Origin: Massilia agilis
Lineage (GTDB): Bacteria > Pseudomonadota > Gammaproteobacteria > Burkholderiales > Burkholderiaceae_D
DNA length: 64,000 nt
Assembly: GCF_024756255.1 (NCBI RefSeq)
Contig: NZ_JANUHB010000003.1
Coordinates: 434,001 to 498,000, forward strand
Direction: 5' to 3'
A program made the translations under genes and the position numbers. Of the stretch, positions 41,541-60,392 are shown piece by piece. Positions within the stretch are counted from its first letter, which is position 1, and each line of letters begins with the position of its first letter. The notes under the pieces were generated by a model, which saw nothing but the letters and a program-made list of their open reading frames with translations, was not told where the DNA came from and did no database searches.

Positions 41541-41648
41541 GTAGGGTGGGCAGATTCTGCCCACGCGTTCAGACACACGCGAGGCTGCTGACACCGCGTG
41601 ACAACATACGCCTGTTGAACGCGTGGGCGGGGAACCCGCCCACCCTGC
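41541..41648. repeat. Family 2 palindromic intergenic repeat, copy 1
   Basis: Left arm GTAGGGTGGGCAGATTCTGC and right arm ending GGGAACCCGCCCACCCTGC, with ACGCGTT/AACGCGT pairing inside. First of two copies between the convergent msrQ and lysA genes. Confidence 0.8.
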
Positions 41649-41683
41649 GTCGCGGTCGCTCAACGCGTGTGATTGAGGTTTTT

Positions 41684-41757
41684 TAGGGTGGGCTCTCGAG
41701 CCCACGCGGCCGTTCACGCGGCGCGTGCCATCGCGTGGGCACAAGTGCCCACCCTAC
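41684..41757. repeat. Family 2 palindromic intergenic repeat, copy 2
   Basis: Left arm TAGGGTGGGCTCTCGAGCCC and right arm GTGGGCACAAGTGCCCACCCTAC. The left arm matches the copy at 59467 and the right arm resembles the arms at 56370, so arms are shared between copies. Confidence 0.8.
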
Positions 41758-53595: not shown

Positions 53596-55236
53596 GTGCC
53601 GGACGCTAAGAACGACAATATTTTCCTGGTTGGCCTGATGGGGGCCGGCAAGACCACCATCGGGCGGCTGCTCGCGCGCAAGCTCGGCAAGCGCTTCGTC
53701 GATTCGGACCACGAGATCGAGGCGCGCACCGGGGCGTCGATCCCGTGGATCTTCGAGATCGAGGGCGAGGCCAGCTTCCGGCGGCGCGAGGCCGACATGA
53801 TCCGCGAGCTCACCGGGCAGCACGGCATCGTGCTGGCCACCGGCGGCGGCGCGGTGCTGGACCCGGCCAACCGCAGGCTGCTGGCCGAGCGCGGCACCGT
53901 GATCTACCTGCGCGCCGGGATCAACAGCATCCTGCAGCGCACCGCCCACGACCGCAACCGGCCGCTGCTGCAGACGTCCGACCCGCGCAAGAAGCTCGAA
54001 GAACTGCTGGCCCAGCGCGAACCGCTGTACCGCGAAGTGGCCGACCTGGTGATCGACACCGGACGGCCTAACGTACAATCGATGGTTGGCACCATCCTCG
54101 AACAGATGGCCGCATGCGTGAAGGAGCGGCCAGGAACAGCAATGAACCAGACAAAACGCATCAACCTCGACGTGGCTCTCGGCAGCCGCAGCTATCCCAT
54201 CGTGATCGGCAGCGCCGTGCTGGACGACGCCGCCCTCGTCGCGCGCCATCTCGGCAGCGGCAAGGCCGCCATCGTCACCAACGCCACCATCGCCCCCCTG
54301 TACCTGGAGCGCGTGGCCGCGCCGATCAGGGCCGCCGGGCACGAGGTGGTCGAGATCGTGCTGCCGGACGGCGAACAGTACAAGACCTGGGACTCGCTCA
54401 ACCTGATCTTCGACGCGCTGCTGGCCAACAAGTGCGACCGCAAGACCACGCTGGTGGCGCTGGGCGGCGGCGTGATCGGCGACATGACCGGCTTTGCCGC
54501 CGCCACCTACATGCGCGGCGTCCCGTTCGTGCAGGTGCCGACCACGCTGCTGGCGCAGGTCGATTCCTCGGTGGGCGGCAAGACCGGCATCAACCACCCG
54601 CTGGGCAAGAACATGATCGGCGCGTTCTACCAGCCGCGCGCCGTGCTGGCCGATATCGGCACGCTGGACACGCTGCCGTCGCGCGAGCTGTCGGCGGGGC
54701 TGGCGGAGGTGATCAAGCATGGCGCGATCCTCGACGCCGGCTTCTTCGACTGGATCGAGCAGAACATCGGCAAGCTGGTCGCGCGCGACCCGGATGCGCT
54801 CGCCCACGCGATCGCGCGCTCGTGCGAGATCAAGGCCGAGGTGGTGCGCAAGGACGAGCGCGAAAGCGGCCTGCGCGCCGTGCTCAATTTCGGCCACACG
54901 TTCGGCCACGCGATCGAGGCTGGCCTTGGCTATGGCAACTGGCTGCACGGCGAGGCGGTGGGCTGCGGCATGGTGATGGCCGCCGATTTGTCGCAGCGCC
55001 TTGGCTACATCGACAGCGCCGCAGTGGAGCGCGTACGCGCGCTGGTCAAGGCCGCCGGGCTGCCGGTGGTCGCGCCCGACCTGGGCGCCGAGCGCTGGAT
55101 CGAGCTCATGGAAGTGGACAAGAAAAACGAGGGCGGCCAGATCAAGTTCATCCTGCTCAAGCCGCTCGGCAGCCCGTGCGTGACCAGCGTGGCGCGCGAG
55201 ACGCTGCTCGAGACGCTGGCCGCCTGCACCGCATGA
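53596..55236 (+). CDS. aroKB: Fused shikimate kinase / 3-dehydroquinate synthase
   Basis: One uninterrupted frame of 546 residues encodes both enzymes of the shikimate pathway. Residues 1 to about 175 are AroK (Walker [22 protein letters not shown]), which phosphorylates shikimate. Residues 183-546 are AroB ([33 protein letters not shown]), which cyclises DAHP to 3-dehydroquinate with NAD. The GTG start at 53596 follows an in-frame stop at 53590. In most relatives the two are separate adjacent genes. An ATG at 54142 with its own AGGA could also start free AroB. dgt overlaps the stop (ATGA). Confidence 0.88.
54132..54144 (+). promoter_or_regulatory. aroB: Internal ribosome-binding site and start for AroB
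   Basis: AGGA (54132-54135) lies six bases before an in-frame ATG (54142-54144) where typical AroB proteins begin ([14 protein letters not shown]). It would give a 364-residue AroB, normal family length. Confidence 0.6.
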
Positions 55237-56372
55237 TCGACTTCGACGCCCACCTTGCGCCATACGCGGCGCATTCGTCCAGGTCGCGCGGGCGCCGTTA
55301 CCAGGAGAGCGCGCCCGGCTCGCGCAGCGAATACCAGCGCGACCGCGACCGCATCATCCACTCGACCGCGTTCCGCCGGCTGGAATACAAGACGCAGGTG
55401 TTCCTCAACCACGAGGGTGACCTGTTCCGTACGCGCCTGACGCACTCGATCGAGGTGGCGCAGATCGGGCGCACGCTGGCGCGCAGCCTGCGCCTGAACG
55501 AAGACCTGGTGGAGGCGACCGCGCTCGCGCACGACCTGGGGCACACGCCGTTCGGCCACGTGGGCCAGGACGTGCTCAACGAGTGCATGAAGGACTACGG
55601 CGGTTTCGAGCACAACCTGCAGAGCCTGCGCGTGGTGGACGAGCTGGAAGAGCACTACGGCGCCTTCGACGGGCTGAACCTGACGTTCGAGACGCGCGAG
55701 GGCATCCTCAAGCACTGCTCGCTCACCAATGCCAGGGTGCTGGGCGAGCTGGGACAGCGCTTCATCGACCGTGCGCAGCCGAGCCTGGAGGCGCAGCTGA
55801 CCAACCTGGCCGACGAGATCGCGTACAACAACCACGATATCGACGACGGCCTGCGTTCGGGCCTGCTGACGATGGCGCAAATGGAGGACGTGGCGTTCTT
55901 CGCGCGCCACCGGCACGAGGTGCGCGCGCAGTATCCGGGGCTGCAGGGACGGCGCGAACTGTACGAGACGATCCGCCTGATGATCACGACCATGACGGCC
56001 GACCTGGTGGAGACATCGGCACGGCTGATCGCGGACGCGGCGCCTGCCGACATTGACGCCGTGCGCAAGGCGCCGCCCTTGATCCGCTTTTCGGACAAGC
56101 TGCGCGCTGAGACGACCGAGCTCAAGAAATTCCTGTACGCGAACCTGTACCGCCACTTCCAGGTGAACCGCACGCGCGTGAAGGCAAGTCGCATCGTGCG
56201 CGAGCTGTTCGGCGCATTCATGGCCGATCCGGTGCTGCTGCCGCCGGACTACCAGGCGCCAGCGGGCGACACGCTCAGGCAGGCGCGCAAGATCGCCGAC
56301 TACATCGCCGGCATGACCGACCGCTATGCGATCCGCGAGCACAAGCGGATCTATTCGATGGACGAGCTGTAG
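55233..56372 (+). CDS. dgt: Deoxyguanosinetriphosphate triphosphohydrolase-like protein
   Basis: Dgt-type HD-domain enzymes cleave dNTPs to nucleoside and triphosphate. The product is 379 residues from the ATG at 55233. The HD-metal motifs are present: His in [10 protein letters not shown], the HD pair in [12 protein letters not shown] and a later Asp in [13 protein letters not shown]. This is the shorter type 2 form. The start overlaps the aroB end; its TAG stop is part of the palindromic repeat at 56370. Confidence 0.92.
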
Positions 56373-56434
56373 GGTGGGCACTTGTGCCCACGCGGTACCG
56401 TGTCTGGCAGCGTGGGCACGAGTGCCCACCCTAC
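56370..56434. repeat. Family 2 palindromic intergenic repeat, copy 3 (overlaps the dgt stop)
   Basis: Arms TAGGGTGGGCACTTGTGCCC and GTGGGCACGAGTGCCCACCCTAC, 65 bases. The first TAG is the dgt stop codon, and the unit ends one base before the mutY stop, so it fills the whole gap between the convergent genes. Confidence 0.85.
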
Positions 56435-56435
56435 G

Positions 56436-57539
56436 TTAAAACAGCTTCGGTGCGGCCAGTTCGGCCAGCAGCTTTTTCACCGGCGCCGGTAGCGGCGCGT
56501 TTTCAATCTCCGACAGCTTCCACCACTGATAACCATCCGGCAGGCCAGCACGCGCCGACAGCGCGATGCGGTAGGGGATGATATGCAGCTTGTAGTGGGT
56601 GAACACATGCACCAGCGGCAGCAGTGCTTCCGTTTCCTCGACGTCGCCGAACGCTTTCGCTGCTGCCGCGACGGCGTCCGGTTGCGGCGCCGCTTCGTCA
56701 ATCGGCAGGTGCCCATCCACCTCGGGCAGCGAACACAGGCCGCCCCAGATGCCGCTGGCCGGCCGCTGTTGCAGCACGACCTGCCCGCCGTCGATCACGG
56801 CCAGCATGACTGCGCGCTTTTCCGGTGTCGCCTTCTTCGGTTTGCGCACCGGGAGTTCGGCCGTGCGCCCGGTGGCAAAGGCTACGCAGCGCTCGCGCAA
56901 GGGGCAGCGCTCGCAGGCGGGACTCGCGCGCGTGCACAGCGTGGCGCCCAGGTCCATCAGCCCCTGCGTGTACGACTCGATGCCTTCGCCTTCCGGCAGC
57001 AGTGCCTGCGCACGCCGCCACAGCGCGTCTTCGGTGCGCTTTTCGCCCGGATAGCTGTCGATGCCGAACACGCGCGCAAAGACACGCTTGACGTTCCCGT
57101 CCAAAATGGCGGCACGCACGCCGCCGGAAAACGCCGCGATCGCCGCCGCGGTGGAGCGGCCGATGCCCGGCAGTTCAGCCAGTAGCAGAGGGTCGGGCGG
57201 GAATGCGCCGCCGTACTGGTCCACCACGCGCCGGGCGCAGGCGTGCAGGTTGCGCGCCCGGGTGTAGTAACCGAGCCCGCTCCAGTGCGCCATCACGTCC
57301 TCGATCGGCGCGGCCGCGAGCGCGTGCACGGTGGGGAAGCGTTCGAGGAAGCGCGCGTAGTAGCCGAGCACCGCCGCAACCTGGGTCTGCTGCAGCATGA
57401 TCTCGGACAGCCACACGCGGTAGGCGTCGCGCGTGTTCTGCCACGGCAGGGCGTGGCGGCCGTGCGCGCGCTGCCACGCGATCACGGCACTGGAAAAGGA
57501 CGGATCGGCAAGCTCGTCGAATTCGGTCAAGCGCTTCAC
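56436..57539 (-). CDS. mutY: Adenine DNA glycosylase MutY
   Basis: MutY removes adenine mispaired with 8-oxoguanine. The product is 367 residues. Catalytic residues are Glu46 (SEIMLQQTQ) and Asp147 (ILDGNVKRV); the helix-hairpin-helix is LPGIGRSTA. The iron-sulfur cluster ligands follow the family pattern at Cys202, 209, 212 and 218. A C-terminal NUDIX-like domain recognises the oxidised guanine. Its ATG overlaps the stop of the dynamin-like gene. Confidence 0.96.
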   Translation of the reverse strand: MKRLTEFDELADPSFSSAVIAWQRAHGRHALPWQNTRDAYRVWLSEIMLQQTQVAAVLGYYARFLERFPTVHALAAAPIEDVMAHWSGLGYYTRARNLHACARRVVDQYGGAFPPDPLLLAELPGIGRSTAAAIAAFSGGVRAAILDGNVKRVFARVFGIDSYPGEKRTEDALWRRAQALLPEGEGIESYTQGLMDLGATLCTRASPACERCPLRERCVAFATGRTAELPVRKPKKATPEKRAVMLAVIDGGQVVLQQRPASGIWGGLCSLPEVDGHLPIDEAAPQPDAVAAAAKAFGDVEETEALLPLVHVFTHYKLHIIPYRIALSARAGLPDGYQWWKLSEIENAPLPAPVKKLLAELAAPKLF

Positions 57540-59449
57540 GCCGCAGGCTCGGCCGACAGTTCGGCGGTCACGCCCTGCGCCAGCGCGACCAGGCGCGCGG
57601 CCAGCTGGTCGAGCTCTTCGCGCAGCGCTTCGAATGCGCGGATCTTCTGCTCCAGCGTGTCGGTGGCGTCGTGGATGCGCTGGATCGACGCCTGGCGGTG
57701 CTTGAGCTGCTCCTTGTGCTGGCGGATCTGCGCTTCCACCGGCGCCATGATCACTTTCAGCCAGGCGTCGGCGTCGGCGTTCGCGGCGCGGAAGGTGCGC
57801 CGCACGCGCGAGGCGATCGAGTCGAAGAAGCGCTGCAGCAGGGTGCCGCGGCTGGTGATGAGCAGGGTGGCGGTGCCGAACTGCTTGAGGTAGATGCCTT
57901 CGATGCGGTCGATCTCGGCCTGGTAGCGGTCGAGCGACAAGCCGATCGGCGGCGCCAGCGACAGGCCGTGTTCGTCCGCGAAGCGCTTGTACATCGTCTC
58001 GATCATCGCGGCGATCTCGGCGATCTTGGCGTTGGACGCGTACAGGTTGCCGCGCGCCTCTTCGAAGAATGCGCGCACCGGGGCGCGCGTGCCGGTGGCA
58101 AAGCGCGCGCTTTCCATCGCCGCGCGCACGGTGTCGATCTGGCGCTGCACCACCTCCATGCCCAGCGTGGTCTGCAGCTCGGCCGACAGGGTCGAGAACA
58201 CGGCGCGCGTGCCCTGCAGCTTTTGCACGCTGGCGTCGAACTCCTTCTTTTCCTGTTCGATGCGCGCCATCATGTGGCCGATCACGCCCTGGTTCTTGCC
58301 GCGCAGGCTCACCAGCTCGTCGAGCTGCTCGACGATGCGGTGGCGGCGGGTGGCAATCGCGGCGTGGCGCGCTTGCCCGAGCGTGTCCAGCTCGGCGCCG
58401 AGCTGGCTGCGGATGATGCCGGTGCGCTGCGGGATCAGTTCGCCGTACAGCGCCGCCTCCAGTGCCGGCATGCGGCTCTTCGCGAGCAGCGCCTGGTTGC
58501 CGGTGACGCGCGCGACCAGCGCCTTCTTGGCCGAGACCGGGAACACCTTGCTCTCTTCCAGCCCGAGGTCGCGCGCCACGCTGGCCTGCTGGCGCGCGAC
58601 GTCGGCGTCGTTGGCGGCGTCGCTCTTGAGCTCATCCCACATCGTGTCGATCTTGTTGAGCACGACCAGGCGTCCGCTGCCGGCGCCGATGTGGTTGCGC
58701 CAGACGTCGATGTCGCTCTTGGTCACGCCGGTCTCGGCGCCCAGCACGAACAGCACCGCGTGCGCGTTCGGGATCAGGTTCAGCGTCAGTTCGGGCTCGG
58801 TGCCGATCGCGTTCAGGCCCGGCGTGTCGAGGATCACGATGCCCTGCTTGAGCAGCGGGTGCGGGAAGTTGATGATCGCGTGGCGCCACAGCGGGATCTC
58901 GATCATCCCGTTTTCGACCGGGGCGCAGGCCAGGTCGGGGTCGTCGGGATCGTACAGGCCGTATGCCTGCGCCTGTTCCACCGGCACCTGGCGCGTCTTG
59001 CTGACCTGGCTGAAGGTCTCGAGCATTTTCTCGGGCGAAGACAGGTCGAGCGGGAACACGGTCCACGCGCCCTGGTCGTCGCGGAAGTCGCTGGTGGACA
59101 GGTGCTGGGCGCGCGTTTCGATCGGCAGCAGGCGGATGCAGGGCGCATAGCTGGCGTCGTACAGCAGCTCGGTCGGGCACATGGTGGTGCGGCCGGCGGA
59201 GGAGGGCAGGATGCGCTGGCCGTAGTCGGAAAAGAAGATCGCGTTGATCAGCTCCGATTTACCGCGCGAGAATTCGGCGACGAAGGCGATCGACAGCCGG
59301 TCGTCGGCCAGCCGCGCGAGCGCGCGCGCGAACTGCTGTTCGCTCGCCGGGTCGAGCAGGTCGGCCTGCCGCAAGCCGTCGCGGTACGCTGCGAGTGCTG
59401 CGGCGACGCGGGTGCGCCAGGCGCCATACTGTTGAAAATCGTGATCCAT
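57536..59449 (-). CDS. Dynamin-like GTPase
   Basis: A 637-residue protein with a dynamin-type GTPase domain: G1 AEFSRGKSE (Lys64, Ser65), G2 threonines in AGRTTMCP, G3 DTPGLNAIG (208-216) and G4 NKID (265-268). The rest, about residues 340-637, is predicted helical with coiled-coil stretches, and a hydrophobic TATLLITSRGTLL segment could be a membrane-contact paddle. Bacterial dynamin-like proteins remodel or protect membranes, but the role of this one is unknown. It overlaps mutY by four bases and follows mutM on the same strand. Confidence 0.85.
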   Translation of the reverse strand: MDHDFQQYGAWRTRVAAALAAYRDGLRQADLLDPASEQQFARALARLADDRLSIAFVAEFSRGKSELINAIFFSDYGQRILPSSAGRTTMCPTELLYDASYAPCIRLLPIETRAQHLSTSDFRDDQGAWTVFPLDLSSPEKMLETFSQVSKTRQVPVEQAQAYGLYDPDDPDLACAPVENGMIEIPLWRHAIINFPHPLLKQGIVILDTPGLNAIGTEPELTLNLIPNAHAVLFVLGAETGVTKSDIDVWRNHIGAGSGRLVVLNKIDTMWDELKSDAANDADVARQQASVARDLGLEESKVFPVSAKKALVARVTGNQALLAKSRMPALEAALYGELIPQRTGIIRSQLGAELDTLGQARHAAIATRRHRIVEQLDELVSLRGKNQGVIGHMMARIEQEKKEFDASVQKLQGTRAVFSTLSAELQTTLGMEVVQRQIDTVRAAMESARFATGTRAPVRAFFEEARGNLYASNAKIAEIAAMIETMYKRFADEHGLSLAPPIGLSLDRYQAEIDRIEGIYLKQFGTATLLITSRGTLLQRFFDSIASRVRRTFRAANADADAWLKVIMAPVEAQIRQHKEQLKHRQASIQRIHDATDTLEQKIRAFEALREELDQLAARLVALAQGVTAELSAEPAA

Positions 59450-59466: not shown

Positions 59467-59541
59467 GTAGGGTGGGCTCTCGAGCCCACGCTGGTCCTCA
59501 CGCTGCGCGTGCTCACGCGTGGGCTCAAGAGCCCACCCTAC
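59467..59541. repeat. Family 2 palindromic intergenic repeat, copy 4
   Basis: Arms GTAGGGTGGGCTCTCGAGCC and GTGGGCTCAAGAGCCCACCCTAC, 75 bases, between mutM and the dynamin-like gene, which are in tandem on the minus strand. Confidence 0.85.
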
Positions 59542-59558: not shown

Positions 59559-60392
59559 TCACCGCTGGCAGTTCACGCAATAAAACGTGGAGCGCTGGCC
59601 CTGTTTGATCTGGCGAACCGGAGCGCCACAGTTGCGGCAAGGCACTCCTGCACGATCATAGACGAAATATGTCTGCTGGAAATAGCCCGACTGCCCGTTC
59701 ACTGCAAGAAAATCACGCAAAGTGCTGCCTCCTTGCACAATCGCGGCCGCCAGGATCTCGCGGATCGCCGTTGCCAGCTTGTCATAGCGGGCGCGGCTGA
59801 CGCGCGCGGCCGGGGTTTTGGGGTTGATCCCGGCCCGGAACAGGCTCTCGCAGGCGTAGATGTTGCCCACGCCGACCACGATGTCGCCGGCCAGCAGCAC
59901 CTGCTTGATCGGCGCGCTGCGCCTGCGCGTTTCGCGGTGGAGCAGGGCGCCCGAGAAGGCCTCGCCGAGCGGCTCCACGCCGAGCCCGCGCAGCAGGATG
60001 TGCTGTTCCAGGTCGCCGTCGTCCAGGCCGTGCCACAGCACCGCGCCAAACCGGCGCGGGTCGTGCATGCGCAGCACTTGCTGGCCGCCGGGCCCCGCCA
60101 CCACGAGGTCGAAATGGTCGTGCTTCTTCGGCTCGGTGCCGGGCGGCAGCACGCGCAGGTGGCCGGACATGCCCAGGTGGATGATCAGCGTGCCATGCTC
60201 GAAATGGATCAGCAGGTACTTGCCGCGCCGGCCGGTGCGCAGGATGCGGCGCCCGGCCAGCAGTTCGCCCAGCCGTGCGGGAAACGGCCAGCGCAGGCCG
60301 TCGCGGCGCAGCACGACGCCTTCCACCACCCGTCCTTCCAGGTGGGGCGCGACCCCGAGGCGAGTGACTTCGACTTCTGGAAGTTCAGGCAT
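59559..60392 (-). CDS. mutM: Formamidopyrimidine-DNA glycosylase MutM (Fpg)
   Basis: MutM excises 8-oxoguanine and related lesions and cuts the abasic site. The product is 277 residues with the catalytic N-terminus MPELPEVE (Pro2, Glu3), a conserved Lys in GRRGKYLL, the helix-two-turn-helix segment ([12 protein letters not shown]) and the C-terminal zinc finger CRNC...CVNC. It is divergent from the TPR lipoprotein gene. Confidence 0.97.

Follow-up and report, generated by a model that had tools for sequence, protein, structure and literature searches.

A gene for a dynamin-like protein (DLP) was found directly behind mutM in a stretch of 64,000 nucleotides from Massilia agilis (contig NZ_JANUHB010000003.1, positions 434,001 to 498,000, hereafter the window), and this gene belongs to one half of an ancient pair of paralogues that keep two different neighbours. 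One paralogue, type A, which includes the Massilia protein, is linked to mutM, and the other, type B, is linked to yggT. The split of the pair, with its own partner gene for each member, is the most interesting aspect of the feature. The Massilia DLP is probably a vertically inherited, soluble, GTP-driven dynamin of membrane maintenance or division, which stands beside mutM by conserved gene order.

Two paralogues with different neighbours

A first-pass annotation of the window had reported that a complete dynamin-type GTPase lies after mutM and overlaps mutY by four bases. Both observations were borne out. The end of mutM is 109 bp upstream of the DLP gene, and the DLP stop codon and the GTG start codon of mutY share the bases GTGA (57536-57539). 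The conservation of this neighbourhood was examined in the best 80 of 195 relatives, which by title are mostly Oxalobacteraceae and Comamonadaceae. Of these loci, 78 had the order mutM-DLP-mutY, among them those of Variovorax paradoxus, Duganella, and Janthinobacterium, and in 78 loci the mutM stop codon was 10-262 nt ahead of the DLP match. The two remaining loci were L056, which is cut off by the end of its contig, and L055, which has a yggS-proC-yggT-yggU context. Of the 79 loci that hold mutY, 37 had an in-frame mutY start codon with the same four-base overlap, counted on possible, unproven start codons, and the overlap is not a detail of one strain or genus.

The gene order was also investigated across the order Burkholderiales. 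The family profile matched 124 of 250 sampled genomes, and 80 of the positives were hand-picked to span families. When adjacency was scored on the same strand within 1.5 kb, with contig ends counted as not adjacent, mutM was directly upstream of the DLP gene in 56 of the 80 genomes, representing 26 families. However, mutY was directly downstream in only 17 genomes from 5 families, and 16 genomes had both. The neighbourhood is not strain-specific. Of the two partners that had been proposed, the link to mutM is wide and deep, whereas mutY is joined only in some families and was rejected as the main partner. The flanks of the mutM-DLP pair varied by family and included an fdx-coaD-rsmD-ftsY block, mutY, pyrC, a cutC-like gene, and others, many of these names being assigned by eye from the sequences. 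Partly conserved housekeeping blocks were present nearby, with prs, ispE, and lolB on one side and fdx, coaD, rsmD, and ftsY on the other.

Other copies of the gene, type B, were found behind yggS-proC-yggT(-yggU) and beside pilT (60 loci read). In six B loci, yggU and the DLP gene overlapped by four bases on the longest frames, although the start in L126 is probably set too far upstream. The pieces matched in the 80 order genomes were typed by the better-scoring of A and B profiles, and neighbours were sought up to 3 kb upstream; profile A1 contained one row, L055, that was later found to be of B type. Among the 63 A pieces, 59 had mutM and none had yggT in this interval. In contrast, 33 of the 37 B pieces had yggT and none had mutM. 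These counts are of matched pieces and include split genes in G231, G099, and G476; six weak pieces were left untyped. Counted per genome, 39 had A only, 18 had A and B, 17 had B only, and 6 had untyped pieces. The mutM-linked gene of G231 is split over two frames (C1:1920751-1922675).

The first-pass annotation had also stated that only one dynamin-like gene is present, unlike systems with tandem pairs. The M. agilis genome carries A only, and the family profile gave a single match in it. One further match to PF00350 was present in another open reading frame (ORF), which we take to be mnmE, and a second DLP in this genome was ruled out. The contrast with tandem pairs holds locally, but many relatives have a second, distant copy, and A and B were unlinked in all 18 genomes holding both.

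For the class outside the order, 71 genomes were analyzed, which were the positives minus four weak ones (G367, G417, G467, and G484), and the distance was set to 3.5 kb. Of 81 pieces, 58 were near yggT, 10 near mutM, 13 near neither, and none near both, and both addresses were present in 6 of the 71 genomes. Each type was recorded in beta- as well as gammaproteobacteria. The profiles failed to type gamma genomes, since nearly all of the sequences behind the A profile came from the order: of the 10 mutM-linked pieces there, 9 had a B-profile score slightly or clearly above their A-profile score. Because profile scores do not separate the types there, A and B were assigned to gamma pieces from the tree. 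When the B profile was run against 299 genomes of the phylum, 27 strong matches were obtained, all within the class, and one more match was weak.

Two trees, in both of which the mutM and yggT labels were assigned by hand, were used to analyze the relationship of the types. In a quick maximum likelihood tree of 68 proteins, which has two long branches, one branch parted all 29 mutM-linked proteins and 3 others from all 31 yggT-linked proteins and 5 others, with one change between the labels. A second tree, computed with FastTree for 128 proteins, took in 80 of the 81 gamma pieces (one G476 fragment was omitted). In it, a branch with support 99 parted all 35 mutM-linked proteins and 7 others from all 76 yggT-linked proteins, again with one label change. 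The A/B split is ancient, and the pattern of inheritance is chromosomal and tree-like. In the 68-protein tree, gamma proteins of each type fell outside the main group of the order. From the sequences, this placement is as would be expected from a duplication before the split of the order from the gamma lineages, followed by losses; an early transfer in place of duplication and losses is still conceivable. A plasmid origin was rejected, as no plasmid match for DLP was found in PLSDB at E 1e-20.

Some copies did not follow the two-type pattern. In family f13, only the C-terminal helical part of DLP was matched behind yggT (G013 C54:4285-5130 and G225 C1:78689-79519); these partial proteins, in a frame of about 370 amino acids, are either a remnant or a trunk-only protein. 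The gamma genome G320, which has one mutM-linked and one yggT-linked copy, contains a third copy of the family near neither gene (L124, C1:1471790-1473685).

Substitution rates were also determined. The ratio of nonsynonymous to synonymous substitution rates (Ka/Ks) of DLP was 0.09 against the nearest relative and 0.44-0.60 against relatives at 65-70% identity. The latter values were not taken as positive selection, because the GC content at third codon positions is very high (0.93) and Ks is low. The DLP of the window lineage, together with L003, had a Ka of 0.23-0.28 against L004, L005, L023, and L006, compared with 0.06-0.16 among the others; this faster change was absent from mutM and mutY.

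The protein and its relation to known dynamins

The DLP gene is an intact ORF that starts with ATG and has an AGG stretch immediately 5' of this codon, and the closest named relative at the locus is Massilia solisilvae (98% DLP identity). The protein matched Pfam Dynamin_N with 61.1 bits (cut-off 27) over residues 54-264. The motifs G1 (AEFSRGKSE), G2 (GRTTMCPTE), G3 (LDTPGLNA), and G4 (LNKID) were all present and near-invariant across 68 relatives; in G1, Ala replaces the first Gly of GxxxxGKS. By Dynamin_N, G1-G4, and a helical trunk, the protein belongs to the dynamin superfamily.

An AlphaFold model of the A protein was built from 25 relatives, with a mean predicted local distance difference test score (pLDDT) of 84.2 and a predicted template modelling score (pTM) of 0.59. 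In the model, two N-terminal helices are followed by the GTPase domain up to about residue 340, and a large helical neck and trunk is predicted from the long helices 342-428, 451-494, 535-566, and 569-632, matching BDLP, IniA, and mitofusin. Foldseek ranked BDLP of Nostoc first (2j69, E 2e-19), followed by IniA, Cj-DLP, mitofusins, and LeoA. The overall architecture of BDLP is common to DLP, but identity in structure alignments was low (about 14-21%), and 477 aligned residues gave a root-mean-square deviation (rmsd) of 49.5, with the A trunk predicted in another position. A model of the B paralogue aligned with BDLP 2j68 over 525 of 680 residues (Z 21.0, rmsd 5.4). The G domain and neck helices of mitofusin-1/2 and Fzo1 superposed well with DLP, and VIA-align of the A model with mitofusin-1 (5yew) gave Z 27.4 and rmsd 3.5 over 346 residues.

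Past residue 340, the helix that is most amphipathic and basic lies in segment 531-580, which had the greatest hydrophobic moment and a charge of +4. The segment contains a basic amphipathic helix at about 536-556, followed by W563 with a hydrophobic turn. Of all residues C-terminal to the G domain, only W563 reaches 94% identity or more across 68 relatives. When L005 or L023 was the reference, no part of the protein had a lower Ka than this segment, which did not hold for L006. From these sequence properties, segment 531-580 is a candidate for contact with the membrane or a partner.

The protein was compared with characterized dynamins, for which papers are cited by PubMed Central (PMC) number. 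Cj-DLP1/Cj-DLP2 and LeoABC are bacterial dynamin-type GTPases whose folds match DLP. Cj-DLP1/2 and most bacterial DLPs are side-by-side operonic pairs (PMC6104087), and because of this a solitary DLP with an unlinked paralogue is unusual: the mutM-linked DLP is solitary, and genomes that also have the paralogue carry it at another site. In mitofusins, tip helices provide a permanent attachment to the membrane (PMC6104087), whereas DLP has no transmembrane segment; B. subtilis DynA consists of two fused DLPs (PMC6104087), unlike the single DLP here. Streptomyces DynA/DynB and B. subtilis DynA, bacterial dynamins with roles in division or membrane integrity, were taken as the working functional model. 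DynB acts with the divisome and stabilises division rings, but has two transmembrane segments (PMC8748795), while B. subtilis DynA helps to keep the membrane intact and postpones lysis by phage (PMC8844932).

PADLOC gave DLP scores of 46.1 bits for LeoBC and 43.7 bits for LeoA, whereas the NCBIfam LeoA subfamily score was 21.2 bits against a cut-off of 325. With this low score, no tandem DLP genes, and a housekeeping context, assignment to LeoABC or a defence island was rejected. The dynamin-type G domain of E. coli RdcA/CrfC (YjdA) aligned by hhalign with positions 50-335 of the family profile. However, there was no alignment past the G domain, and RdcA/CrfC has a partner gene, rdcB, next door. 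The N-terminal beta-clamp motif of CrfC (QLALP, sought as QL[ASGD]L[PF] and present in CrfC at 41) did not occur in any of 29 A and 31 B rows, and CrfC-like clamp binding was rejected. By the tested features, DLP is not of the LeoABC, RdcA/CrfC, or DynB type.

The locus in the window

The coordinates of the locus are given in the table. The identity of the neighbouring genes was assigned from TIGR00577 for mutM (270.1 bits, cut-off 203.3) and TIGR01084 for mutY (334.7 bits, cut-off 286.5).

Features of the DLP locus in window coordinates
Feature	Position	Strand	Evidence
Dynamin-like GTPase, type A, mutM-linked, 637 amino acids	57536..59449	-	ORF, Dynamin_N, model and fold matches, trees
N-terminal neck helices and GTPase domain, about residues 1-340, G1-G4	58430..59449	-	model secondary structure, motifs
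Segment of residues 531-580, candidate membrane or partner contact	57710..57859	-	hydrophobic moment, charge, Ka, W563
mutM (fpg), conserved upstream neighbour	59559..60392	-	TIGR00577, adjacency in relatives
mutY, A/G-specific adenine glycosylase, 4-base DLP overlap	56436..57539	-	TIGR01084
Repetitive extragenic palindromic (REP)-like element, mutM-DLP gap, 25-nt arms	59467..59541	.	inverted repeat, RNA fold
Second copy of gap palindrome, just past mutY	56369..56434	.	pattern matches 56369-56379 (+), 56424-56434 (-)

Part of the 109-bp gap between mutM and the DLP gene is filled by a large dispersed palindrome, with an RNA fold of -66.6 kcal/mol (z -9.9), and two copies of it flank the DLP-mutY pair. 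The pattern GTAGGGTGGGC(N6)GCCCA had 235 matches genome-wide and none in the reversed control, and in the listed part of the matches many were inverted pairs some tens of bases apart. The REP-like palindrome was also present at 41541-41757 of the window. The promoter scan returned one promoter-like site (0.3 expected), and the terminator scan one terminator-like site (3.4 expected). An apparent fusion of aroK and aroB lies at 53596-55236 of the window, where a shikimate kinase (SKI) domain and a 3-dehydroquinate synthase domain share a single frame.

Possible functions of the mutM-linked dynamin

As a housekeeping dynamin of membrane maintenance or division with the BDLP/mitofusin architecture, DLP would be cytosolic and would dimerise via its G domains. 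GTP-driven opening and closing of the trunk would serve to bind the inner membrane or to tether or stabilise it, and the basic amphipathic segment is the candidate point of contact. It may act in membrane maintenance, or in membrane-nucleoid coupling at division. The tie to mutM would then reflect conserved gene order, probably with co-transcription in most lineages, and would not be evidence of a role in the repair of oxidised DNA. The YggT family (PF02325) also takes in Streptomyces SepG/YlmG, which functions in division and in organising the nucleoid (PMC4852450), and YlmG has an effect on the nucleoid in both chloroplasts and cyanobacteria (PMC2923531). By analogy, the family, the fold, YggT/SepG, DynB, and DynA together make membrane maintenance or division more likely than DNA repair, with moderate confidence.

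Several results weigh against a membrane dynamin. The hydropathy scan found no transmembrane segment in DLP (the top 19-residue value, 1.25, was inside the G domain), and a classical paddle of the BDLP type was not evident. The low pTM and the rmsd to BDLP make the trunk placement in the A model unsure. RdcA/CrfC is a dynamin-type GTPase that acts as a soluble regulator (PMC6510439, PMC6374313). Because of the strong hairpin in the gap, co-transcription of mutM and DLP is uncertain in M. agilis. The division hint from YggT is also weakened, because the SepG paper considers it unlikely that YlmG and E. coli YggT overlap in function (PMC4852450).

The neighbours raise the question of a role in repair. 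Both repair 8-oxoguanine, and the first-pass annotation had suggested a link between membrane integrity and oxidative damage. In such a repair-coupled dynamin, A would work with MutM, and with MutY where linked, for example by tethering the nucleoid or replication forks to the membrane where oxidative damage occurs, or by repairing membranes that have suffered lipid peroxidation. The same-strand upstream position of mutM for 59 of 63 A pieces and in 10 of the 71 gamma genomes, in several flanking contexts, is consistent with this, as is the mutY start overlap in 37 of 79 loci, and E. coli CrfC, a dynamin-type protein, binds the replication clamp (PMC6374313). Neisseria transcribes fpg together with the phospholipid gene nlaA, for reasons obscure to the authors of that study (PMC2628661). 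A comparable lipid gene behind DLP was sought in 15 loci and no pattern was seen; one of them, L144, has genes resembling acyltransferases by eye. However, mutM was found in 36 of 40 genomes without DLP (the no-match genomes individually listed in the order and class surveys), and the paralogue is tied to yggT. Many genomes have only one of A and B, and in the 17 of 80 order genomes with B only, no B piece was within 3 kb of mutM. CrfC aligned over the G domain only, and its motif was absent in A and B rows. No paper joining bacterial dynamins with mutM/mutY or bacterial DNA repair was found in the open-licence PMC literature. A functional tie to 8-oxoguanine repair is thus unsupported, and we consider a repair-coupled dynamin unlikely. 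A related, tentative, and rather doubtful proposal is that A and B are parallel membrane machines, in which B would work with YggT at division or nucleoid sites and A would couple MutM repair to the membrane or nucleoid; where both exist, they might form a heterotypic complex, as in operonic pairs.

The adjacency may also be pure gene-order inertia, in which mutM and DLP stayed side by side only through the persistence of an early arrangement, without so much as co-expression. The neighbouring housekeeping blocks are likewise partly conserved, and the hairpin separates the two genes in M. agilis. However, the pair persists while the flanks differ between families, and the mutM stop codon is just 10-262 nt from the DLP match; inertia is a possible explanation, but not a probable one. 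A regulatory GTPase like RdcA, a soluble switch that binds to a membrane protein (such as YggT in the case of B) and controls this protein instead of remodelling lipid, would agree with the lack of a transmembrane segment in DLP and with the position of B beside the membrane protein gene yggT, and E. coli RdcA does so for DgcE (PMC6510439). We judge it improbable for DLP, whose whole architecture resembles BDLP and which RdcA matches over the G domain only; no conserved membrane-protein gene was seen beside A in the loci read. The PADLOC scores and the delay of phage lysis by B. subtilis DynA could point to a role in defence or against phage, similar to that of LeoABC or DynA. The LeoA subfamily score far below the cut-off, the missing tandem partner, the housekeeping neighbours, the tree-like inheritance, and the plasmid search argue against it, and such a role is very improbable.

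No description of a mutM-linked or yggT-linked DLP type was found in the open-licence PMC literature. The best-known bacterial dynamins are operonic pairs from a few organisms. The type described here is a solitary chromosomal DLP that is widespread in two large bacterial groups, with two paralogues keeping two different neighbours. This split pair makes the question of proteobacterial dynamin function directly testable.

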